From Ctena decussata (lineage: Eukaryota > Mollusca > Bivalvia > Lucinida > Lucinidae), in contig OZ022510.1 in assembly GCA_963989385.1 (NCBI GenBank), forward strand, positions 32,803,448 through 32,867,447: 64,000 nt of DNA, written 5' to 3'. Each line of letters starts with the position of its first letter. Within the stretch, counting starts at the first letter, position 1. Below, one piece after another: positions 2,954 through 49,504 of the stretch. The notes beneath the pieces were generated by a model. It had not been told where the DNA came from. It saw nothing but the letters and a program-made list of their open reading frames with translations, and searched no databases. A program made the translations under genes and the position numbers.

Positions 2954-3767
2954 AAATTTCAGGCAAAAAAAAATATAAAAGTTACGTTTTCTAACATCAA
3001 AAAAGTGTTACAGTTGTCGTAACAGTCGTCAGCCTGCGTTTGATCTCGAACGTATGAAGAAAACATTCTTTATTGTTCTGTTTGTTTGATATGAAAGATG
3101 TTTTGTGTAATTAGCTTTGTAAACAGCAGACTGCATGTAACATAAGAGCATTTTCGTTAACAAGCGGTTATCCAAAGAGTTGAAGCAGTTCCGGTGAAAC
3201 TTACAAATAGAGACTATGTTCCACCTATTGTTGTTTTCTCATGACAACAGGAGGAGCATGGATTCTTATATTACTAAACGAGACAGAGCTCCAGCTGTTG
3301 TTACATCATGTATCATGTCATGACAACAGGAGGAGCATGGTTTCCTATATTACGTACAGAGACCATGCTCCATCTGTTGTTATAATCTGATGACAGCAGG
3401 TGGAGCATAATTACCTATCGTACCAACAGAGACCATGCTCAAGCTGTTCTTATAATCTGAGGACAACAGGAGGATCATGGTTTCCTATAGTACTATCAAA
3501 GGCCATGCTCCAGCTGTTGTTATAATCTGATGACAATAGGAGGGGCATGGTTTCCTATAGTACTAACAAAGACCGTGATTCAGCTTTTGTGATCATCTGA
3601 TGACATCAGGTATTGTACTTATAGAGACCACGCTCCAGCCGTTGTAATTATCTGATGATAACAGAAGGAGAATGGCTTCCTGAAGTACTAACATAGACCA
3701 TGCTCCAGCTGCTGTTATAACCTGATGACAACAGGAGGAGCATGGTTTCCTTTAGAACTATCAGAGC

Positions 3768-3928
3768 TGCTTCGGTTAACTGTGCATGTCTTTGGTACAC
3801 TTTTGACAATCTGTGTGTATGTATGTGCTTCTTTTCCTATTGGTTTTGAAACCGGAAAGTGGGATTTGATTGTATTAATTCCTGATCATTGCCTATCTTT
3901 TTACTTTCCTAAAGTACTAACAGAGACC
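3768..3928. other. Non-satellite interruption in the 70-bp array
   Basis: About 160 bp beginning 'gcttcggttaactgtgcatg' separates satellite units. It contains 'tgtgtgtatgtatgtgc' and no satellite words. No TIRs or target-site duplication could be recognised, so its origin is unknown. Confidence 0.5.
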
Positions 3929-4100
3929 TTCTTCAGCTGTTGTTTTAATATGATGACAACAGGAGAAGCATCGTTTCCTATTGTACTAACGGACGTGACG
4001 TTACATGTTTTTCAAATACAGTCTAGTCTCTGAAGAAGACGAAATTAAAATCTTAAAAAGTTCCTTCAAGAGCAGAGAATACATACAGAAGTAGGAACAT

Positions 4101-4146
4101 GGGCCAGACTACGTAGTTTCGGCTAATAAAGCCTCGTCAGTGACCC
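4101..4146 (-). ncRNA. Hammerhead ribozyme, type I, copy 1
   Basis: Read on the minus strand: stem I 5' strand GGGTCA (4146-4141), core CTGACGA (4140-4134), stem II GGCT-TTATT-AGCC (4133-4121), GAAA (4120-4117), stem III CTAC/GTAG (4116-4109), then the cleavage triplet ending GTC (C at 4107), then TGGCCC (4106-4101). The last segment pairs fully with GGGTCA, with one G-U wobble. All invariant core positions of the family (CUGANGA, GAAA, UH at the cleavage site) are present. The very short stem III is typical of retrotransposon hammerheads, which often act as dimers. Confidence 0.9.
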
Positions 4147-4481
4147 TGACAATATCTGGGGACGAAACCAGAAAAAAGCATACTGTAATTTCTTAATTTT
4201 AATTGGACAGTCGATTCAAAGACTGATTAGTTTCAAAAGGATCCAAATAATATAAAAGACGATGATCTAGAATAATAGTCTAAATCGATCTCAAATTTTA
4301 GATTTCTAAGAATCTATCCTCTGATCTCAAAGGATGTAAATAAAATATAATCTGCACTATGGATGATGTACGGGGAGACGTTTTACGGCCGCCACACGGC
4401 ACAACACCAGCTGCAGTGAGGTAATTTAAAATCTTAAAAAGTTCCTTCAAGAGCAGAGAATACATACAGAAGTAGGAACAT

Positions 4482-4527
4482 GGGCCAGACTACGTAGTTT
4501 CGGCTAATAAAGCCTCGTCAGTGACCC
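4482..4527 (-). ncRNA. Hammerhead ribozyme, type I, copy 2
   Basis: This is the same 46 nt as copy 1, shifted by 381 bp: stem I 4527-4522 with 4487-4482, CTGACGA 4521-4515, stem II 4514-4502, GAAA 4501-4498, stem III 4497-4490, cleavage after the C at 4488. No core or stem base differs from copy 1, so both ribozymes look competent. Confidence 0.9.
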
Positions 4528-7500
4528 TGACAATATCTGGTGACGAAACCAGGAAAAAACATACTGAAAGTCTAAACGTGAAAACCTGTGTTTTGTCATA
4601 TTTCTGAACTTAATGGTACTAAACGAGAGCACGCTCTAGCTATTGTTATAATCTGATGAAAACAGAAAGAGCATAGTTTCCTATAATACTTACAGACTGT
4701 TGTAGTAATCTGATGACAAAAGGAGAAGCATGGTTTCTTAAAGTACTTACAGAGACCATGCTACAGCTGATGGTATCGTCTGATGACAACAGGAGGAGCA
4801 TGGTATTCTATGGTACTTTCAGAGACCATGCTCCAGCTTTTATTATATTGTGATGACAACGGGAGGAACATGATTTCTTATAGTACTATCAGATCCCATG
4901 CTCCAGCTGTTATTATAATCTGATAACAACAGGAGTAGCATGGTTTTCTGTAGTGCTAACAGAGACCATGCTCCACTTATTGTTATAATCTGATGACAAC
5001 AGTGGAGCATGAATACCTACAGTACTTGCAGAGATTATGCTCCAGCAGGATTTCCTATATACTAAACAGAGACTATTCGCCAGCTGTTGTTATAATCTCA
5101 TGACAACAGGTGGAGCATGGTTTCCTATATACTTAACAGAGACCATGCTCCAGCTGTTGGTATACTCACATGACAACAGGAGGAGCATGACTTCGTATAT
5201 ACTTAACAGCGACCATGCTGCAGCTGTTGGTATACACACATGATAACAGGTGGAGCAGGATTTCCTATATACTGAACAAAGACCATGCTTCAGCTATTGT
5301 TATTCTGTCATGACAACAGAGGGAGCATGGTTTCTTATATACTTATCAGAGACTATACTCTAGCTGTTGGTATACTCTCATAACGAGAGGTGGAGCATAA
5401 TTTCCTATTTACTTCATAGAGACTATGCTCCAGCTGTTGTTATACTCTCATGACATCAGGTGGAGCAGAACTTTCTGAATACTTAACTGAGACCATGCTC
5501 AAGCTGTTGCTATACTCTCATGACAACAGGCGAAGCAGGGTTTCCCATATACTTAAAATAGACTATGCTGAAGCTGTTGTTATATTCTCATGTCAACAGG
5601 TGGAGCACGATTTGCTATATTTTGTAACAGAGACCATGCTCCAGATGTTGGTATACTCTCATGCCAACAGGTGGAGCATGATTTCCCATATACTTAACAG
5701 AGACCATGCTGAAGCTGTTGTTATATTTTTATGTCAACAGGTGGAGCAGTATTTCCTATATACTTAACAGAGACAATGCTCCAGCTGTTGTTATAGTCGG
5801 ATGACAACAGGTGGAGCATGATTTCCTATATACTCAACAGAGACCATGCTCCTGCTGTTGTTATCTTCTCATGCCAACAGGTATAGCATGATTTCCTATA
5901 TACTTAACAGAGACCATGCTCCAGCTAATGTGATACTCTAATGACAACAGGTGGAGCATGATTTCCTATATACTTAACAGAGACCATGCTACAGATGTTT
6001 TTATACTCTCAGGACAACAGGTGGAGCATGGTTTCCTACATACTTAGCATGGACAATGCTCCAGTTGTTGGTATACTCTCATGACAACAGGTGGAGCATG
6101 ATTTCCTATTTACTCAACAGAGACCATGCTCGGGCTGTTGTTATATTCTCACGACAACAGGTGGAGCATGATTTCCTATATACTCAACAGACACCATGCT
6201 TGAGCTGTTGTTATATTCTCATGACAACAGGTGGAGCATGATTTCCTATATACAAAAGAGAGACCATGCTCCAGCTGTTGTTATACTCTCACGACAACAG
6301 GGCGAATATGATTTCCTATATACTTAACAGAGACCACGTTCAAGCTGTTGTTATACTCTCATGATAACAGGTAAGGTAGGATTTCCTATAAACTTAACAG
6401 AGACCATGTTCTAGCTGTTGTTATACTCTCATGACAACAGGTGGAGCAGGATTTCCTTTTTACTAAACAGATACCATGCTCCAGCTGTTGTTATATTCTC
6501 ATGACAACAGGTGGAGCATGATTTCCTATATACTTAACAGAGACCATGCTCCAGCTGTTGGTATACTCTCATGATAACAGGTGGAGATTGATTTCCTATA
6601 TACTTAACGGAGACCATGCTCCAGCTGTTCTTTTACTCTCATGACAACAGGTGGAGCAGGATTTCCCATATACTTAACAGAGACCATGCTGAAGCTGTTG
6701 TTATATTCTCATGTCAACAGGAAGAGCAGGATTTCATATATACTTAACAGAGACCATGCTCCAGCTGTTGTTATATTTTCATGGCAACAGGTGGCGCATG
6801 ATTGCCTATATACTTAACAGAGACCATGCTCCAGATGTTGTTATACTCTCATGACAACAGTTGGAGCATGGTTTCCTACATACTTAACATGGACCATGCT
6901 CCAGTTGTTGGTATACTCTCATTACAACAGGTGAAGCAGGATTTCCTATTTACTTAACAGCGACCATGCTCCGGCTGTTATTATATTCTCATGACAACAG
7001 GTGGAGCATGATTTTCTATATACTTAACATAGACCATGCTCCAGAAGTTGTTATACTCTCACGACAACAGATGGAGCATGATTTCCTATATACTTAAGAG
7101 AGACCATCCTCATGCTGTTGTTATACTCTCGTGACAACAGTAGGAGCCTAAATTTCGTATACACTAAACAGAGACCATGCTCAAGCTGTTGTTATACTCT
7201 CAAAACAACAGGTAGAGTAGATTTCCTATATACTTAATAGAGACCATGCTCCAGCTATTGGTATTCTCTCATGACAACAGGTGGAGCAGGATTTCTTTTT
7301 TTTCTAAACAGAGACCATGCTCCAGCTGTTGTTATATTCTCATGACAACAGGTGAGGATGATTTCCTATAAACTTAACAGTGACCATGCTCCAGCTGTCG
7401 TTATACTCTCACGACAACAGGAGGAGCAGTATTTCCTAAATACTTAACAGAGATCATGCTCCAGCTGTTGTTATAGTCTGATGACAACAGGTGGAGCATG

Positions 7501-9630
7501 ATTTCCTATATACTCAACAGAGACCATGCTCCAGCTGTTGTTATCTTCTCATGCCAACAGGTGGAGCATGATTTCCTATTGCTTAACAGAGACCATGCTC
7601 CAGATGTTGTTTTCCTCTCATGACAACAGGTGGAGCATATGTTCCTATATACTTAACAGAGACCATGCTCAAGCTGTTGTTATACTCTCGTGACAACAGG
7701 AGGAGCATGATATCGTATACACTAAACAGAGATAAGGGTCCAGCTGCTGTAATACTCCCATGACAACAGGTGAAGCATGATTTCCTATATACTTAACAGA
7801 GACCATGCTCAAGCTGTTGTTATACTCTCATGACAACAGGTGGAGCAGAATTTCCTTTTTACTAAACAGAGACCATGCTCCAGCTGTTGTTATATTCTCA
7901 TGACAACAGGTGGTGCATGACTTCCTAGATACATCACAGAGACCATCAAGCTGCTGTTATATTCCAATAACAACAGGTGGAGCATGAATTCCTGTATACT
8001 TAACAGAGACCATGCTTCAGCTGTTGTTATACTCCCATAACAACGGGTGGAGCATGATTACCTATATACTTAACAGAGACCATGCTCCAGATGTTGTTTA
8101 ACTCTCATGACATCAGGTGGTGCCTGATTTCCAATTCACTTATCAGAGACCATGCTCCAGCTGTTGTTATACTCTTTTGACAACAGGTGGAGCATGATTT
8201 CCTATATACATAAGAGAGACCATGCTCCAGCTGTTGTTATACACTCATGACAACAGGTGAAGCAGGATTTTCTATATACTTAACAGAGACCATGCTTCAG
8301 ATGTTGTTATACTCCCATAACAACAGCTGGAGCATGATTACCTATATACTTAACAGAGACCATGCTCCAGATGTTGGTATACTCTCAAGACAACAGGTGG
8401 CGCATGATTTTCTATTCACTTAACACAGACAATGCTCCAGCTGTTGTTAAACTCTCGTGACAACAGGTGGCGCATGGTTTCCTATGTACATAAGAGAGAC
8501 CATGCTGCAGCTGTTGCTAAACTCTCATGACAACAGGTGGAGCATGATAACCTGTATACTTAACAGAGACCATGCTCCAGATGTTGGTATACTCTCATGA
8601 CAACAGGTGGAGCAGGATTTCCTATTCACTTAACAGAGACCATGGTCCAGCTGTTGTTATAGTCTCATGACAACAGGTGGAGCAGGATTTCCTATATACA
8701 TAAGACAGACCATGCTCCAGCTGTTGCTATACTCTCATGACAACAGGTGGAGCATGATTTCCTTTATACATAAGAGAGACCATGCTCCAGCTGTTGTTAT
8801 ACACTCACGACAACAGGGGGAATATAATTTCCTATACAGAGACCCAGCTCAAGTTGTTGTTATACTCTCATGATAACAGGTAGAGTAGGATTTCCTATAT
8901 ACTTAACAGAGACCATGCTCCAGCTGTTCTTATAGTCTCATGACAACAGGTGGAGCAGGATTTCCTATATACATAAGAGAGACCATGCTCCAGCTGTTGC
9001 TATACTCTCATGCAAACAGGTGGAGCAGGATTTTCTATATACTTAACAAAGACCATGCTCCAGCTGTTGTTTTACTCTCATGACAACAGGTGGAGCAGGA
9101 TTTCCTTTCACTAAACAGAGACCATGCTCCAGATGTTGTTATTCTTTCATGACAACAGGTGGCGCATGATTTCCTATTCATTTAACAGAGACCATGCTCC
9201 AGGTGTTGTTATACTCTCATGACAACAGGTGGAGCATGATTTCCTATATACATAAGATCGACCACGCTTTAGCTGCTGTTATTCTCTTATGACAACAGGT
9301 GAAGCAGGATCTTCTATATACTTAACAAAGAACAGACTCCAGCTGTTGTTATACTCTCATGACAACAGGTGGAGCATGATTTCCTATTAACTTAACAGAG
9401 ACCATGCTCCAGCTGTTGTTATACTCTCATAACAACAGATGGAGCATGATTTCCTATATTCTTAACAAAGACCATGCTTCAGCTGTTGTTATACTCTCAT
9501 GACAACAGGTGTAGCATGATTTCCTATATATTTAACAGAGACCATGCTCCAGCTTTTGTTATACTCTCATCACAACATGTGGAGCATGATTTCCTATATA
9601 CTTAACAGAGACCATGCTCCAGCTGTTGTT

Positions 9631-9797
9631 ATGGTTTTCTATATGGCAAATAGAGAGCGTGCTGCAGCTGTGCTGTAGTAAACACTAACAGAGGCCAAGC
9701 TGTAGCTGTTGTCATGCTAAAGGAGATCGTGCTCCAGCTGTAATCATGAAATTATAACAACAGCTGCATCACGGTCCCTATTTGTCATATAGGAAAT
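9631..9797. repeat. Inverted satellite-like units closing the array (hairpin)
   Basis: 'ttctatatggcaaatagaga' with 'gctgcagctgt' at 9631-9668 is inverted at about 9758-9797 ('acagctgcatcacggtccc' then 'tatttgtcatataggaa'). Between the arms are degenerate satellite words such as 'gagatcgtgctccagctgt'. The array therefore ends in a foldback. Confidence 0.7.
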
Positions 9798-12023: not shown

Positions 12024-12317
12024 TTTCATGTTTGCCAGAACGTAGCAGAGCCTGCTCTCCTGCTTAAAGTCTCATCAATAAACATCTACAGAGAAGTTTA
12101 GTTTTCCTGTACTGCTCATTAAAATGGCCTGAACTGATAGAATTGCAAAATCTCAGCGTCTTTGTCTCTTAAGAGGAGTACGATAAATGCTTTATACTAT
12201 TCAGAAACTTTTAGATTGAGTTTAGTTGCTTAAATCATTACTAAATACGCTATATGACTTACAGGTATCAGAACGGTCGCCGTTTCACATGGTAAATGCC
12301 ATCATTTATTTATCCAG
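12024..12317. other. Stretch without recognisable gene
   Basis: Ordinary AT-rich sequence between a MITE and the TRIM-like array. Nothing recognisable. Confidence 0.5.
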
Positions 12318-12541
12318 TGTTACGGGCCAACTCTCCTACCCTCCAATATCTACAATTGCAGATTTGCGTATAGCTTCGTATATATTCAATCTCTGACAAC
12401 TGCGTCAGGGAGTTATCTCTTTGGCTCAGTGGTTAGAGCATAGGACTATCACCCGGGAGTTCGATTTCGAATCCCAGCAAACGTCTGGAATTTTTTTCAG
12501 CTATGCTTTGGTCCGTTTGTTACGGCAGCAATGTCGTAAGA
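12318..12541 (+). repeat. LTR 1 of the TRIM-like element
   Basis: Begins TGTTACGGGCCAACTCTCC and ends GTCGTAAGA. Box A TGGCTCAGTGG is at 12422-12432, with a box B-like 'tttcgaatccc' about 40 bp on. It is followed directly by a PBS with one mismatch (12542-12559). Confidence 0.8.
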
Positions 12542-12623
12542 TGGGGGCTCGTCCGAGATAGGACATTCTAAGCCAAAATGGCTTTCAGTCATCATAAATG
12601 ATGACTTCCTTGAAGTGGGGGAG

Positions 12624-12844
12624 TGTTACGGGCCAACTCTCCTACCTTCCAATATTTACAAATGTAGATTTGCGCATAGCTTCGTATATATTCAATCTCT
12701 GACAAATGCGTCAGAGAGTTAACTCTTTGGCTCAGTGGTTAGAGCATTGGGCTATCACCCGGGCGGTCCGTGTTCGAATCTCAGCAAAATACTGGATTTT
12801 TTTCAGCTCTTTGGTCCGTTTGTTGCGGCAGCAATGTCGTAAGA
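12624..12844 (+). repeat. LTR 2 of the TRIM-like element
   Basis: Same ends as LTR 1. Box A is at 12728-12738 and box B-like GTGTTCGAATCTC at about 12770. It is both the 3' LTR of the first unit and the 5' LTR of the second. Confidence 0.8.
12718..12790 (+). promoter_or_regulatory. tRNA-like internal Pol III promoter in LTR 2
   Basis: Box A TGGCTCAGTGG, a D-arm that pairs (GCTC/GAGC), an anticodon-arm-like CTATCACCCGGG and box B GTGTTCGAATC lie in tRNA-like spacing. The acceptor ends do not pair, so this is a tRNA-like promoter rather than a functional tRNA. The same module occurs in LTR 1 (about 12412-12482) and LTR 3 (about 13020-13092). Confidence 0.7.
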
Positions 12845-12862
12845 TGGGGGCTCGTCCGGGAT
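12845..12862 (+). promoter_or_regulatory. tRNA-Pro type primer-binding site
   Basis: TGGGGGCTCGTCCGGGAT lies immediately after LTR 2. It is the complement of the 3' end of tRNA-Pro including CCA, a primer-binding site well known from LTR retroelements. The copy after LTR 1 (12542-12559) has one mismatch. Confidence 0.8.
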
Positions 12863-12926
12863 ACGACATTATTAACCGAAATGGCTTTCAGTCATCATAA
12901 ATGATGACTTCCTTGAAGTGGGGGAG

Positions 12927-13151
12927 TGTTACGGGCCAACTCTCCTACCTTCCAATATCTACAATAGTAGATTTGCGTATAGCTTCGTATATATTCAATC
13001 TCTGACAAATGCGTCAGGGAGTTAACTCTTTTGCTCTGTGGTTAGAGCATTGGACTATCACCCGGGAGTTCCGGGTTCTAATCCCAGCAAACGTCTGGAA
13101 TTTTTTTCAGCTATGCTTTAATCCGTTTGTTACGGCAGCAATGTCGTAAGA
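12927..13151 (+). repeat. LTR 3 of the TRIM-like element
   Basis: Same start and end as LTRs 1 and 2. It is followed by unrelated sequence ('ccgtcatttt') instead of a PBS, which fixes the LTR end. Box A is weakened here (TTGCTCTGTGG at about 13031); box B-like GGGTTCTAATCCC lies near 13073. Confidence 0.8.
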
Positions 13152-21722: not shown

Positions 21723-21874
21723 AGAAAATTTGACTTTTTCAGTGTAAGATGAATTTTTATTTCACTCATGAACACCAAATGTGGTATTTTCGCCACTCGT
21801 GAAAATACTGCTTTTGGTGTCCATTCGGTGAAATAAAAATCGATCTTACACTGAAAAAGTCAAATATCCTCTAT
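21723..21874. repeat. Hairpin with about 65-bp arms (foldback E)
   Basis: 'gactttttcagtgtaagat' and 'gaatttttatttca' on the left are inverted on the right ('tgaaataaaaatcg', 'atcttacactgaaaaagtc'). Centre 'ggtattttcgccactcgtga'. No protein. Confidence 0.75.
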
Positions 21875-22618: not shown

Positions 22619-22860
22619 TTACACTCCCTCCTCGCACCGGCCAAAGGAGAACTCTATCTTCAAAATAAATTTAAATGAACACAACGCTACCAAGGGAAAA
22701 GAAAATGTATAATCTGCACTCTCATGAAGCTCGGGAGACGTTTTACGGCAGCCGCACGGACTCGCACCAGCTGCAATGAAGATGAGTTCTGAAAAGTTAG
22801 ATCTCAGATAACAAAGATTTAAATTATCGTAATCTGCTAAAAACAAAGTGATCGCATTTC
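22619..22860. repeat. Copy of the retrozyme-like element's middle module
   Basis: 'tataatctgcact', 'gggagacgttttacggc' and 'caccagctgcaatgaag' at about 22700-22790 match 4345-4430. The flanks differ and no hammerhead core is present. The minus-strand frame across it (22619-22876) has no domain I recognise. Confidence 0.55.
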
Positions 22861-28911: not shown

Positions 28912-30428
28912 ACAAAACAAATAAAAACTAGAAAATGTGTTTATGAAACACTATGCCCCCAACCATATGCTTGCCTCTAAAGAAGGTTCATCCAATAATG
29001 CTTGTACCTTTGTACCATAGGCTTCAATGCACTACGTCGAAAAAGGGGCTTAACTCAGTGAAATATTCACAATTTTTTTTCGAAAGTTAATCAGGTCATC
29101 TACAGCTTGGGCCATATCTTCCTGCAAAAAATCATGAACCTAGCGTCAGGGGTTCTCCAGATATTTTGTTCACAAGGTTCCATAGGCTAACAATGCATTA
29201 AGTTGAAAAAGGGGCATAACTCAATCATAAATTTTCAATTTTTTTTCAAAAGTTAATCAGGTCATCTATACCTTAGGCAGTATCTTCCTGCAAAAAATTC
29301 ATGCTCCTAGCATCAGGGGTTCTTGAGATATTTTGTCCACAAGGTTCCACAGGCTTACAATGCATTAAGTTGAAAAAGGGGCATAACTCGGTCAAAAATT
29401 CACAATTTTTTTTTTCAAAAGTTAATCAGGTCATCTACATCTTGGGCAATGTCTTCCTGCACAATTACATGATCCTAGCATCAGGGGTTCTCCAGATATT
29501 TTGTTCACATGGTTCCATAGGCTAACAATGCATTAAGTTGAAAAAGGGGCATAACTCAATCATAAATTCACTATTTTTTTTCAAAAGTTAATCAGGTCAT
29601 CTACACCTTAGGCAGCATCTTCCTGCAAAAAATCATGCTCCTAGCATCAGGGGTTCTTGAGATATTTTGTTCACAAGGTTCCATAGGCTTACAATGCACT
29701 AAGTTAAAAATGGGGCATAACTCGGTCAAAAATTCACGATTTTTTTTCAAAAGTTAATCAGGTCATCTACACCTTGGGCAATGTCTTCCTGCACAATTAC
29801 ATGATCCTAGCATCAGGGGTTCTCCAGATATTTTGTTCACAAGGTTCCATAGGCTAACAATGCATTAAGTTGAAAAAGGGGCATAACTCAATCATCAATT
29901 TTCAATTTTTTTTCAAAAGTTAATCAGGTCATCTACACCTTAGGCAGCATCTTCCTGCAAAAAATCATGCTCCTAGCATCAGGGGTTCTTGAGATATTTT
30001 GTTCACAAGGTTCCATAGGCTTACAATGCACTAAGTCAAAAAAGGGGCATAACTCGATCAAAACTTCACGATTTTTTCCAAAAGTTAATCAGGTCATCTA
30101 CACCTTGGGCAATGTCTTCCTGCAAAATTACATGATCCTAGCATCAGGGGTTCTTGAGATATTTTGTTCACAAGGTTCCATAGACCAAGTTGAAAAAGGG
30201 GCATAACTCTGTAAATACATGACCGGCGAAAAAAAGAAAAAATGCGTGTCTACTTATTTTTCATGTACATGCCACATATAAAATTTCAAGATCCTAGCAT
30301 AAGGGGTTCTTGAGTTTCCCACCTGCCAAAAAGTGTTACGGACGGACGGACAGACGGACTCACGGACGGACGGACAGGCCCAAACCAATATGCCCTCTCA
30401 ACTTCTCCGAAGTTGGGGGCATAAAAAA
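28912..30428 (+). mobile_element. Bivalve-type tandem-bearing interspersed element, 166-bp units x7
   Basis: The head 'gtttatgaaacactatgccc' (about 28940) recurs at 42361. Seven units of about 166 bp are marked by 'tcaggtcatc' at 29091, 29257, 29426, 29592, 29758, 29924 and 30089, each with 'aaaaaggggcataactc' and 'tagcatcaggggttct'. The tail at 30335-30428 has 'acggacggacggacag' and 'gaagttgggggcataaaa'. Head and tail both contain a TATGCCCCCAAC-like word in inverted orientation. No transposase; frames inside are shadows. Confidence 0.85.
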
Positions 30429-33634: not shown

Positions 33635-34620
33635 TGAGCTGCGACACAAGAAAACCAACTAAGTGGTTGAGCGCCCAGGGCAGACTCAGATCAGCCTGGT
33701 CATCCGCCCAATTTAATCAGGCTCTTCGCTAAGCGCTTTCTATTCTATTCTATTCTATCCCATAACCTAACTAGGTCGTTGGGGCACCACAGATGACTTC
33801 CAAACAATCCCTTTCCACCTTTTCCTGTCTTCAGCTGCCCTAATTGAGCTGGCAAAATTCATCCCTGTCCACTCCTTGATATTGTCTTCCCACCTCTTCT
33901 TCTGTCTACCTCTTCTTTTTTTTTCCTTTCACTGTGCCCTGAAGAATTGTTTTTGCTAAATCAAAAGACATTGAGACGTGGCCAAACCGTCTTAGTTTCC
34001 GTTTCTTGACCAGAGTCAGGAGTTCATCATATTCTCCAATGGCTGCTTGGATCTTCCTGCGAACCTGCTCATGGGTTATATGGTCCTTGTACGAAATGTT
34101 CAGTAACCTTCGGTAGCATCTCATCTCAAAGGCCTGCGTTATTTTCTCTAACTCGGCTGTCAAGGTCCACGATTCACAGGCATACAGAAATATGGAAATG
34201 ACAAGGGAGCGCATATGTTCACCTTTGATCCAAGAGATATGTTGTTATCTCTCCAAACTGGTTTCAGCTTGGTAAGAGCTGATTGAGAAGTGGCTTGTGC
34301 AATCCTTGAGAGAACCTCCTGTTTTGATCCCTCATCTGAGACAACTGCTCCAAGGTATTTGAAGCTGCTTACAGTACCAAGCTTCTGCTCTTCCTTTACC
34401 TTGATCTCCCTCTGGATGCCATCTGTGCTGTTCGTCATCAGTTTGGTCTTCTCAGCACTGATCTCCATCTTATATCTTGTGCGCTTAAAGGGTAGCTAAG
34501 GGTCAAAGCTACCTCCATGGGCACAACGAAGACTCTGATCAGACTGGGCGGATGTCCAGGCTGATCTGAGTCTGCGCCCGGCGCACAACCACTTTGTTGG
34601 TTTTCTCGTATCGTGGCTCA
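33635..34620. mobile_element. Palindromic MITE split by a LINE insertion
   Basis: The left half 33635-33738 ('tgagctgcgacacaagaaaa' to 'cttcgctaagcgctt') and right half 34481-34620 ('gcgcttaaagggtagctaag' to 'ttctcgtatcgtggctca') together give a full MITE of about 245 bp. GCGCTT occurs at both junctions (33733-33738 and 34481-34486) and is the target-site duplication of the inserted LINE. Confidence 0.9.
33739..34480 (-). pseudogene. 5'-truncated RTE-type LINE, C-terminal part of ORF2
   Basis: Minus strand. The first frame (34468-34160) reads MEISAEKTKLMTNSTDGIQR, SSFKYLGAVVSDEGSKQEVL, then ALTKLKPVWRDNNISLGSKV. After a frameshift near 34215 it continues MRSLVISIFLYACESWTLTA, FEMRCYRRLLNISYKDHITH and LVKKRKLRRFGHVS (34214-33906). 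This is the region after the RT palm in RTE-clade LINEs, common in bivalves. The element ends at the left in (TTCTA)n, i.e. a (TAGAA)n 3' tail at 33739-33758, and starts abruptly inside ORF2 at the right, as expected for 5' truncation. The same LINE family supplies the N-terminal half at 53.9-56.85 kb. Confidence 0.9.
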
Positions 34621-38592: not shown

Positions 38593-38838
38593 AAAGGACC
38601 TTGTATGATAAGGCCCATGTTTGGCCCCCAAAAAACTCATTTTTCAAAAGTTCTATTTGGATAATTAAAATGCATTCATCGGAAAGTTCTAAACTACAGT
38701 GTAACAGCAAATACAAAATTAACCAGTTCTTGCATAAAATAGTTCTGATTTTAATCTTGAACATACTCATTACTCATACCCCAGCGAATTCTGACGAAAA
38801 TGACAATTTTGTTAGCCTTTGCGGCTTTCAAAATATAT

Positions 38839-38935
38839 GAGCCCGGCCTCCAGCACATTTTATATTTTATATGCAGACACAATTTTGATATATTTACATG
38901 CCATGAAAATATTAAATGTGCTGGAGACCGGGCTC
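38839..38935. repeat. Hairpin with 22-bp arms
   Basis: GAGCCCGGCCTCCAGCACAT (plus TT) is inverted as AAATGTGCTGGAGACCGGGC (plus TC) around 53 bp of AT-rich loop. One mismatch in the arms. Confidence 0.65.
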
Positions 38936-40481
38936 TATGTTTATTTTTAACTTTTTGTTACCAAACTGGCAGCGTTCTCCGATCATAGACGAAATAAATA
39001 TATACTATGCAAAATATATTTAGCAAATTTTTATATTTTGCAGTTTTTCTCATTACTGAATTGCAACATTGAGAGAAATTAAATTGAATTGAAAGGAACC
39101 GTATTTGGGGCTTAAGATACCATGGGATTACAGAAGCCATCTTTAAAAACGTGTTGGGGAAAAGCGATGAGCGCGGAAGGGGTCATTAGCCGAAATTCGC
39201 ACCCATTGAAAAGCAACATAAAAATGGTAAGCATGTGATTTTTTGTACGGTATTTCTCAACATTTTCATGCTCAGTTTTCTTGTAAAAGCTATTGATTGT
39301 GAAAAAGATATGGTTAAGCTTAACAACTGACAAATCTTAGCATGCGCTATTGACGTTAAAACGTGTTAATTCGGTCCAATGTGCAATGATTTATGGGTGC
39401 TTCAGTTCAATGCAGAATCAAACCCGAGAAAAACAGTAGGCTAAAATTAAAGGTCACACCATGATTAATTTATCTGTGAAGTTTCTTCATTGCAGTATAA
39501 CGTAACTGTGAGAAAATGATGACGTTAGTCTGAGACTTTTGATTTATGCTCGGTAACCGGGAAGAATTTTCTTTCTGAATTGTTTACATTATAATATTGG
39601 TAGCTACCATACAATCATATACTCAAAAGGGATTCAAGAAACACCGATTAGAAACAAGTTTTTAAGACGATAACGTAAAAGCAATGGAAAACGTCAAATT
39701 TTCGAACTTAGTAAACCTCATACTCGTAACATATTCAAATGTTTTAGAGCGTTTTCCTTTATTTTAACAACAAACCAACCGCCTCATTATGGTTGTAGCT
39801 TTTATACATGATCATAAATGTCGTTCAGATACAATGGTCATAAAAAACTGACGTCACGATAGTTCAAACGCTACAATTGAGCAATCTTGATTCTTTTACC
39901 TGCCAGTCCATCTCGAATGATCGGCCTTTATTCCTTTATGCAGTAAAGTGACAATAAAATTCTTATATGGTGGATCTGACACATACAAAAAAATTGCTAT
40001 ATTTATTGTGCATAGTATATGTTGTGAATATTCATTTTCTTAGTTAGAACACTAGAAATAATTTGGTACACATTTCATTTTGATCCGTTGGAATCTTTTG
40101 GTTAGCGTCTCTGGAATTGCAAACTTAAGTGGGTAGTGGGTAGGGTACCTTTACAGGCCTTGTGCAGTGCACAGGTAATTAGCCGTGGTATCCAACGTAT
40201 AAGCATTTCATCAAAAGCCTATTATCAATAGCTTTCAAAAGCTATTGTAAATGCCTTGTTTCGTTAAAGGTAAAATTATTAAACTCGATTTTTCTTGCAA
40301 TTTTCCTTCATATTATTGAACCAGCAAAGGCATGTCAGAAATCATTTTATTTGAGAATTAACATAAGTGAAACATATTATTACTGTTTGTTCACATACGC
40401 ACAAATGATAAGCAATAGAAACCATGCAATTTTAAGAAAATTTGAATAGGGGCCATTTTTGCCCTTATCATACCAGGTCAT
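38936..40481. other. Stretch without recognisable gene
   Basis: AT-rich. A TGACGTCA lies at 39849-39856. Short frames around 38958-39333 have no domain. No repeat family recognised. Confidence 0.5.
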
Positions 40482-42360: not shown

Positions 42361-42975
42361 TAGAAATTGTGTTTGTGAAACACTATGCCCCAACCATATG
42401 CGTGCCGCTAAAGGTATCAAGCTTTAGAATGTCTAAGTTTAAAAAGGCGTTACATAATCATTACTTAAATATTTAAATCATCAAGGACTACTAATATACC
42501 AAAACCAGCTTCATAGTTCAAGCGGTTCAGAAATTGGAAAAAAGCCAATTTCAAACAAGGGCCATAACGCAATCGAAATTTTAAACAATTCTCACAAAAA
42601 TTAATCAGGCTATCTACTCCTCATTTCCAACAAGTGTACCAAATATATATCTTGCTAACAAGATATTCATCTCATTTATTAAAAAAGGGCGTTGCTCCAA
42701 AATGAGTCATAAATCAGAAAAGAAAAATACGCATTAGTTGGTTTTCCATGAGGAATCCATTTATCGAATTTCAATACCCAACCCCAGTGGTTCTTGAGCC
42801 CTGTAGCTGCATAAGTATCGAACAGTAGCGGAAATAATTCCGAAATTATTGAATGCAGAGTTATTTATCCTTTACTCAAATATTTAACGCATCAATAACT
42901 ACTACTATAGTAAAAATCACCTTCCTAAACGGCAAAACAATGCATTAAATCCAGAGACATAGCGCTTGTTTATGA
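42361..42975 (+). mobile_element. Partial bivalve-type element (head only)
   Basis: The head 'gtgtttgtgaaacactatgc' with 'cccaaccatatgcgtgcc' matches the start of the 28.9 kb element. It continues with 'gccataacgcaatcgaaatt' and 'taatcaggctatctactcc', then decays. No GGACGG tail. Confidence 0.6.
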
Positions 42976-48030: not shown

Positions 48031-49504
48031 AAATATTGCAGTCCTACGTTGGCACCAAGAAAAGTAGTAGTAAACCGTTGACTCACAACTAGACGGACAG
48101 CGCGGCGACCAGTCATCTCATCTACACCTGATATTTTGACAATGCAGAACGAAGCAAACATAAAACCCGTACTTATCAAACTATGAAAAAACGCTCCACG
48201 GCAAAACAAATGCACAAAAGTGAATCATTAAAAATATCGCCTTAGAAGAATCGGGCGAAAGAATCTACAGTGTCGTCTAAAAAGTCGCTTCTCCACGTTT
48301 TGAATATGACAAACATCACTGAGGGGAGATGATGCAAAGACAATTTAGAAAAGTGAAATGATGCACTTTCCTGCAACTTTATCATTCGTGAAGTTTCATG
48401 ACAACCCCATTGATACGGTTGAATTGCATTTGCGCAGGTTTGGTCCATGTTCCTTCTTTCGAATATGTTCTCTGCTCTTGAAGGAACTCTTTTAGATTTT
48501 AATTTGGTTTTGACCTCCGCGATACGTTTGCGCAGCACTTCGGGAATACGAATGCGCAGCTTTTAAAAGGGGTACTTTTGATGACATGGTCACAACTGCG
48601 CACCCTGGCTTAGCGTTTCGGTCATTACATCTCACACGGTTGCCTTTAAGTTCCAAGAAGCGCTTAATAAGAAATAAGTTTTCATACACATAAACAGCGA
48701 ATTTGAGGCCTCTCTCATCTGAAGAAAAGGCAGAACGTGAGAGACATAAATTCTTGGTAGGACAGTACAACTACCTTACTGGTGAAACTTACACATTATG
48801 TCAAAAGCATTCGCTACCGTGGACAAGCTCGCAATGAATTATAGCATATGCGATGAGGATTTTTTTAATAACTTGAATCAGTGAAATACAATTCTTGTAA
48901 TTCTTGTAACCACTGAGGAATTTTTCATGGGAAGTTTTGCTACATGTATTCTAGATGAGTGTATCCTTTATCTGATGAGATTTTCTGATAATAATTCCAT
49001 GTGTGGAAAATAGATGGATGTAGTTTAAGTTACATCTTATTTGTCAAGAAGGTCCACATTTGCCTAAGCAATGGCGCATTTCGAATTAGCTGCGCAGACG
49101 TACTCAGGAAGTCCCCAAAACGGTTGCACAAAACATTTTTAAAAAAATCGGCCCATAATTATGTATTGCCAATCAGCGCAAATATGGATCTCCCTTCGAT
49201 ACTCTGCTTCTGACAAAAGAGTCGCGGACGCACGGAACTGGAAATGACTTCGGCGGGGATAACAGCCCTACTTTAAATTTATCATCAGGTGTGAATAAAA
49301 ATGGACGTGCTCAACACTCAGAAATAGCATCAGAGCCGGTAAAATACAGATTTAGCTCTTGCATGTCGCGGAATTAGTTATCCTGATGCTTGGAGATCTC
49401 ACTTTCCCTGTATGAATGGTATATTGGTCGGAATGTAAACGTTCAAAATAGCGAATTTGTTCTAAATCAGTATCTTTTCAAAGGACTGACTGTTAGGAAG
49501 TTTT
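48031..49504. other. Stretch without recognisable gene
   Basis: Minus-strand frames at 47925-48215, 48242-48538 and 48492-48770 (92-98 codons) overlap one another and show no domain I recognise. Their close spacing might hint at a decayed gene, but I cannot support that. Confidence 0.4.

Follow-up and report, generated by a model that had tools for sequence, protein, structure and literature searches.

The window analysed here, a stretch of 64,000 nucleotides from the bivalve Ctena decussata, carries close to its start two direct repeats, each with a hammerhead ribozyme on the minus strand, which raises the question of what kind of element this is and whether its transcript might be released as a circular RNA. 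We assign it to the metazoan non-LTR retrozymes on account of its size and composition, the type of its ribozyme, its arrangement and the missing LTR signs, and consider it very probably an inserted copy of such a non-autonomous element. The repeats, the complete ribozyme motif, the sizes and the duplication at the ends can be read directly in the DNA. Intact paired ribozymes are the first requirement only, and the anatomy would fit each further published step. The class has already been described, including in a mussel (PMC7229834), and the element looks like a further copy of it. Retrozymes matter as a natural, splicing-free route to RNA circles in animal genomes.

Layout of the element

Self-comparison of the window revealed direct repeats at 4042-4188 and 4423-4569 (147 bp, 97% identity, spacing 381). 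Comparison of the repeat edges gave a common part of 141 bp (4045-4185 and 4426-4566) with three differences, at 4160, 4172 and 4178, all of them outside the ribozyme, so that the two copies are the same at core and stems, as the earlier note had claimed. The 141-bp repeats at a distance of 381 bp which that note described are likewise real, 381 bp being the start-to-start distance and the gap between the copies being 240 bp. From these edges the whole element would span 4045-4565, a length of 521 bp, which corresponds to 1.37 times the 381-bp monomer.

4045..4565, minus strand: probable retrozyme insertion, 521 bp = 1.37 units of the 381-bp monomer (repeat edges and flanking duplication)
4045..4185, minus strand: repeat copy 1, downstream in the RNA sense (repeat comparison)
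4426..4566, minus strand: repeat copy 2, upstream in the RNA sense; its last base is possibly part of the target duplication (repeat comparison)
4107..4487, minus strand: predicted 381-nt monomer RNA, 5' UGGCCC ... GUC 3' (G+C 37%)

The repeat spacing bears out the proposed 381-nt monomer, and its size and G+C are as published for the mussel and other animal retrozymes. Available descriptions of metazoan non-LTR retrozymes give non-coding units of about 170–400 nt with a G+C below 45–50%. The monomer (381 nt, G+C 37%) lies within these bounds and has no long coding frame, the longest stop-to-stop frame overlapping the element being one of 63 codons (4298-4489, minus strand). Two hammerheads stand in tandem within the 1.37 units, the tandem-unit arrangement of the class. 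The element ends are AGTATG...TTTTAA, TG..CA termini being absent; the sense strand holds no purine run of at least 8, and there is no TGG beside the upstream repeat (the primer-binding site, PBS, was judged by eye without comparison to a tRNA set). The lack of LTR ends, PBS and polypurine tract (PPT) signs on the sense strand is in line with animal retrozymes, which in the accessible descriptions have no LTR, PBS or PPT and whose target duplications, when present, are larger than 4 bp.

Hammerhead ribozymes

The ribozymes were located with a whole-motif descriptor requiring the fixed core and at least five, four and three pairs in stems I, II and III, respectively.

4101..4146, minus strand: type I hammerhead 1, predicted cleavage 4107/4106 (descriptor; weak Hammerhead_3 match 4111-4155)
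4482..4527, minus strand: type I hammerhead 2, predicted cleavage 4488/4487 (descriptor; weak Hammerhead_3 match 4492-4536)

Copy 1, read on the minus strand, begins with the 5' arm of stem I (4146-4141) and CTGACGA (4140-4134), followed by a stem II of four pairs (4133-4130/4124-4121) with a 5-base loop (4129-4125), GAA (4120-4118), stem III (ACTACGTAGT, 4117-4108), C17 (4107) and the 3' arm of stem I (4106-4101). Stem I has six pairs, one of them G-U, and copy 2 is found at +381. These are the only two matches in the window (128 kb, both strands), while random sequence with the window's dinucleotide make-up gave 2 matches in 3660 Mb; therefore 7e-5 chance matches are expected over its two strands, the two copies being counted as a single event. 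This confirms the claim of a pair of complete minus-strand hammerheads of type I. The bare core pattern CTGANGA..GAAA, with 4 observed and 2.36 expected occurrences, is not significant by itself (at least 4 in 23 of 100 shuffles), and a relaxed scan for minimal hammerheads, allowing one core base off, added a single further place (54456, plus strand).

One detail of the earlier description was wrong. It had drawn stem III as CTAC/GTAG in one molecule, which is impossible because the palindrome leaves no loop. In a single copy stem III has three pairs, counting A15.1-U16.1, and closes on an ACGU loop; it takes two copies for all 10 bases to be paired.

The covariance-model search that had been proposed as a check was negative at the curated cut-off. 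At the gathering cut-off Rfam gave 0 matches across the window, and none of the 15 matches obtained over the whole window with E up to 1 was a hammerhead. When the search was confined to a 631-base stretch, Hammerhead_3 was reported at both copies on the correct strand, with 20.0 bits against the 48.5 required (E 0.15); since the search reports the best clan member only, this score is that of Hammerhead_3 and not of the type I family. Its alignment imposes four non-standard pairs on the type I form found here. Hammerhead_3 is a type III family whose open helix is stem III, and it is for this reason that, as a matter of judgement, we give the descriptor more weight than the Rfam score. By the descriptor the type I core and stems of a metazoan retrozyme ribozyme are complete, with Rfam at 20.0 of 48.5 bits. 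Of the original retrozyme interpretation, then, the architecture, the paired type I hammerheads and the 381-nt monomer stand, whereas the covariance model stays below its cut-off.

Predicted folding

The predicted fold of the 381-nt circle is more stable than those of 199 out of 200 shuffles (z -2.86), with 56% of the circle paired (a prediction from one copy) as against more than 70% in the accessible part of PMC4918200. The 96-base ribozyme region is unexceptional (z -0.66, 48 of 200 shuffles folding at least as well). In the free fold predicted for a lone copy there is no hammerhead, and its core is taken up by an alternative hairpin.

4134..4152, minus strand: alternative hairpin, CUGACGA paired over 7 bp with the upstream UUGUCAG; identical letters at 4515-4533 (minimum-energy folds)

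Such a 7-bp hairpin has a chance probability of 0.3%, under a rule set post hoc. Forcing the hammerhead in the circle gave -83.5 instead of -87.7 for the free fold, a cost of 4.2 kcal/mol. Co-folding of two copies gave as the lowest-energy dimer an exact double hammerhead with a 10-bp helix III (-37.7 kcal/mol). In the 521-nt transcript, the cost relative to the free minimum is 2.7 kcal/mol for the double hammerhead, 11.3 for two single hammerheads and 4.5 for one; with flanks (621 nt) the corresponding values are 3.3, 10.1 and 5.9 kcal/mol. Even where two copies are present, the lowest-energy free fold is thus not the active one, the double form lying 2.7 or 3.3 kcal/mol above it.

Since the palindrome extends over the whole of helix III, both ribozymes of a long transcript could pair together and cut, the single ribozyme of the circle being locked in the 7-bp hairpin. 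We put this dimer gate forward tentatively, as a model that is rather doubtful on present evidence. Dimerisation is ordinary by energy, since among 500 shuffles 174 reach the gain from two-copy pairing and 30 reach the dimer energy; in the model, what is specific about the dimer is that its lowest-energy form is the exact double hammerhead. The fold energies also leave out tertiary contacts, and with an ordinary pairing gain this makes the gate a prediction and not a result.

Cleavage, according to the accessible text of PMC7229834, is dimeric in amphibian retrozymes, efficient in most invertebrate ones and slower in the mussel. The same text reports that most animal circles stay closed though their hammerheads look free to act, and that something besides self-pairing probably holds them closed, some mussel circles being excepted on both counts. 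Were the gate true, the circle would be stable by design; this would answer, for this element, the question of why circles stay closed, which PMC7229834 leaves open, and would extend dimer-dependent cleavage from amphibians (PMC7229834) to a retrozyme of the invertebrate type. The predicted two-state ribozyme also offers a direct bench route to how circles escape their own ribozyme.

Probable insertion site and flanks

An apparent GAAA duplication lies exactly at the edges of the repeats.

4041..4044, no strand: left copy of the apparent target-site duplication GAAA; 3-bp AAA fits just as well (1.4% by chance)
4566..4569, no strand: right copy of the apparent target-site duplication GAAA (repeat-edge comparison)
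3994..4040, plus strand: left flank, part of an older insertion in satellite; CTGAAGA (4030-4036) is half of a decayed Penelope-type minimal hammerhead
4570..4612, plus strand: right flank, other half of the decayed minimal hammerhead, GTC-TAAACGT

Among random pairs of window positions, 1.4% show a 4-bp match when one base of slack is allowed. When the element and one GAAA are removed, the flanks read CTGAAGA-A-GAC-GAAA-GTC-TAAACGT, an exact hammerhead core with a stem II of three pairs and a 3' part that differs by one base from GAAACGT, which we take to be the form of this part in the minimal hammerheads of Penelope-like elements. Only 3 of 400000 random joins of window DNA satisfy the rule for a rejoined-flank hammerhead, which was set post hoc. 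Two bases, the one in the G12 position and the one following CGT, are unsuited to activity, and the flank hammerhead is therefore a remnant. It belongs to a Penelope-type fragment of about 95 bp that interrupts a 70-bp satellite: the satellite can be aligned up to 3993 and again from 4613 onwards, and GTACTAAC-like letters flank the fragment on either side. Read as nested interruptions, these features would mean that the Penelope-type fragment entered an existing satellite and that the retrozyme came last. With legible ends, and a target in which satellite and Penelope-type remnant can still be recognised, the copy provides an insertion footprint that bears on the question of reverse transcription and insertion.

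The satellite itself is large (3202-9632, with 65.7 units in 5044-9632) and shows by eye further interruptions, e.g. near 3767-3903. The neighbouring 113-codon frame (3692-4033) had no Pfam match.

Animal retrozymes are described in the accessible text of PMC7229834 as being transcribed, self-cut to monomers and circularised, most likely by tRNA ligase; for their reverse transcription a partner element, perhaps a Penelope-like one, is proposed. For the element in question, an RNA carrying both hammerheads would arise by read-through transcription of the minus strand; this RNA would cut itself into 381-nt monomers that are then ligated to circles. The reverse transcriptase of an autonomous element, Penelope-like or other non-LTR, may have copied the circle for more than one turn, and this would produce a cDNA of 1.37 units. 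Such a cDNA would then have been inserted into the older, hammerhead-bearing DNA inside the 70-bp satellite array.

Relatives in the window and searches for copies

Metazoan non-LTR retrozymes are characterised by numerous genomic copies and by monomer RNAs that occur in tissue in circular and in linear form. Within the window the element has two relatives, both of them partial, and no other copy flanked by direct repeats came to light.

4338..4419, minus strand: middle module, with a partial relative at 22698-22779 (79% over 84 columns; nhmmer E 4.4e-9)
48438..48511, plus strand: partial relative, from cleavage site to repeat edge, without hammerhead (84% over 74 bp; nhmmer E 1.2e-8)

The relative at 22698-22779 corresponds to the middle part of the element that adjoins the repeat edge, and the earlier observation that the middle module is common with 22.7 kb was reproduced. 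By the descriptor, both relatives lack a hammerhead. The 48.5 kb relative keeps an 8-pair hairpin, whose counterpart in the element consists of six pairs and an interrupted continuation. It also resembles the flank for 9 bases beyond the supposed left end (7 of 9); if this likeness were not due to chance, the element boundary would shift elsewhere. Two weaker nhmmer matches of the monomer were dropped, one (4311-4465 on the other strand, E 0.0037) being the element's own self-complementarity and the other lying at 42749-42810 (E 3.8). Pattern scans of public viral and prokaryotic contig collections gave no match, which says little because of what these collections contain.

A coding gene under the 48.5 kb relative was considered and rejected. 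Its 106-codon frame, on the opposite strand, has no Pfam match (10 frames were checked, this one included, and a different frame gave the single weak match, which stayed below cut-off) and lacks a homologue in a protein search limited to relatives sharing exact words, and the shared DNA includes 21 consecutive identical bases, third codon positions included.

By eye, the minus strand of 22698-22789 has a string close to a tRNA box B, and may therefore be part of a tRNA-derived SINE. ARAGORN found 0 tRNA genes in the window.

Comparison with known systems and alternative explanations

The retrozymes of the mussel Mytilus galloprovincialis, with repeats of about 350–390 bp and abundant circles (PMC7229834), offer the closest description, and comparison with this family is by description only, from the accessible part of that paper. 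The two are alike in the type I hammerhead, the unit (381 against about 350–390 bp), the low G+C, the lack of a long frame, the absence of visible LTR, PBS and PPT signs, and a short helix III with a tetraloop, as in invertebrate hammerheads. They differ in the 1.37 units, the 3–4 bp duplication and the predicted misfolding of the lone ribozyme. Judged by title and the start of the abstract, no other paper on bivalve retrozymes appeared among the matches listed. The newt and axolotl hammerhead repeats, as far as the same source covers them (PMC7229834), share with the element a weak helix III and a palindromic loop, suited to dimeric cleavage, and with units of 330–350 bp come near to its 381 bp; helix III seems longer here, and there is no long satellite array of the unit.

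The retrozyme reading has points against it as well. The Rfam score is far below cut-off, there is no second direct-repeat copy in the window, the duplication is shorter than published, pairing reaches 56% instead of more than 70%, the ribozyme region has a z of only -0.66, the lone-copy fold is not a hammerhead, and the 48.5 kb relative shows its likeness to the flank. The element departs from the class in its short 3–4 bp duplication and its 56% pairing, each of which was measured on a single copy. A hammerhead-like string arising by chance in some unrelated repeat would agree with the lack of an Rfam match at cut-off, yet with 7e-5 expected per window we regard this possibility as negligible. 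Local partial tandem duplication, by which one hammerhead repeat was doubled through unequal exchange or slippage without any circle or reverse transcription, is compatible with the tandem arrangement and with three differences in 141 bp. The surrounding DNA is satellite, in which unequal exchange is frequent. It leaves unexplained, however, both the duplication at the two ends and the minimal hammerhead that appears after removal of the 521 bp, and we find it unlikely.

A small LTR-type element (a TRIM, or an animal equivalent of the LTR retrozymes known from plants) would have 141-bp LTRs and a 4-bp duplication made by integrase. The likeness to plant LTR retrozymes, within the portion of PMC4918200 available, consists in two ribozymes, one in each terminal direct repeat, around a unique middle, and a 4-bp duplication such as the GAAA found here (3 bp equally compatible; 1.4% by chance). 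Against it, the ribozyme is type I and not type III, the repeats measure 141 and not 300–400 bp, the unit 381 and not about 700 nt, PBS and PPT are not seen, and the termini, purine runs and missing TGG are as given above, which together make this origin very unlikely. Helenus, whose LTRs carry tRNA-like sequence, is weakly excluded by the lack of a tRNA in the window with ARAGORN or at the Rfam cut-off, though a decayed tRNA-like part could escape detection.

The chances are slimmer still that the element is debris of a Penelope-like element with hammerhead-bearing repeats. Such elements, as far as their available description goes, share with it minimal type I hammerheads in tandem, and the flanks hold a Penelope-type remnant; these hammerheads are described as being without helix III, which has three pairs here, and the element has no reverse transcriptase frame, its longest frame being of 63 codons and the adjacent 113-codon one (3692-4033) matching nothing in Pfam. 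Moreover, remnant and element look like different insertions, since the latter interrupts the former. The non-LTR retrozyme remains the best explanation of the locus.

Other features of the window

Long inverted repeats at 38833-38940 and 21725-21868 match miRNA families in Rfam below cut-off. A miRNA reading was rejected, the matches being below the cut-offs and looking like inverted repeats; they are perhaps miniature inverted-repeat transposons. Fragments resembling a reverse-transcriptase gene lie at 33906-34495, within which the stretch 33906-34244 is a member of a family of very high copy number, matched by 7886 of the 8000 candidates scored in the protein search, and has no Pfam match. 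Tandem arrays occupy 12316-13151 (303-bp units) and 29015-30183 (166/332-bp units).
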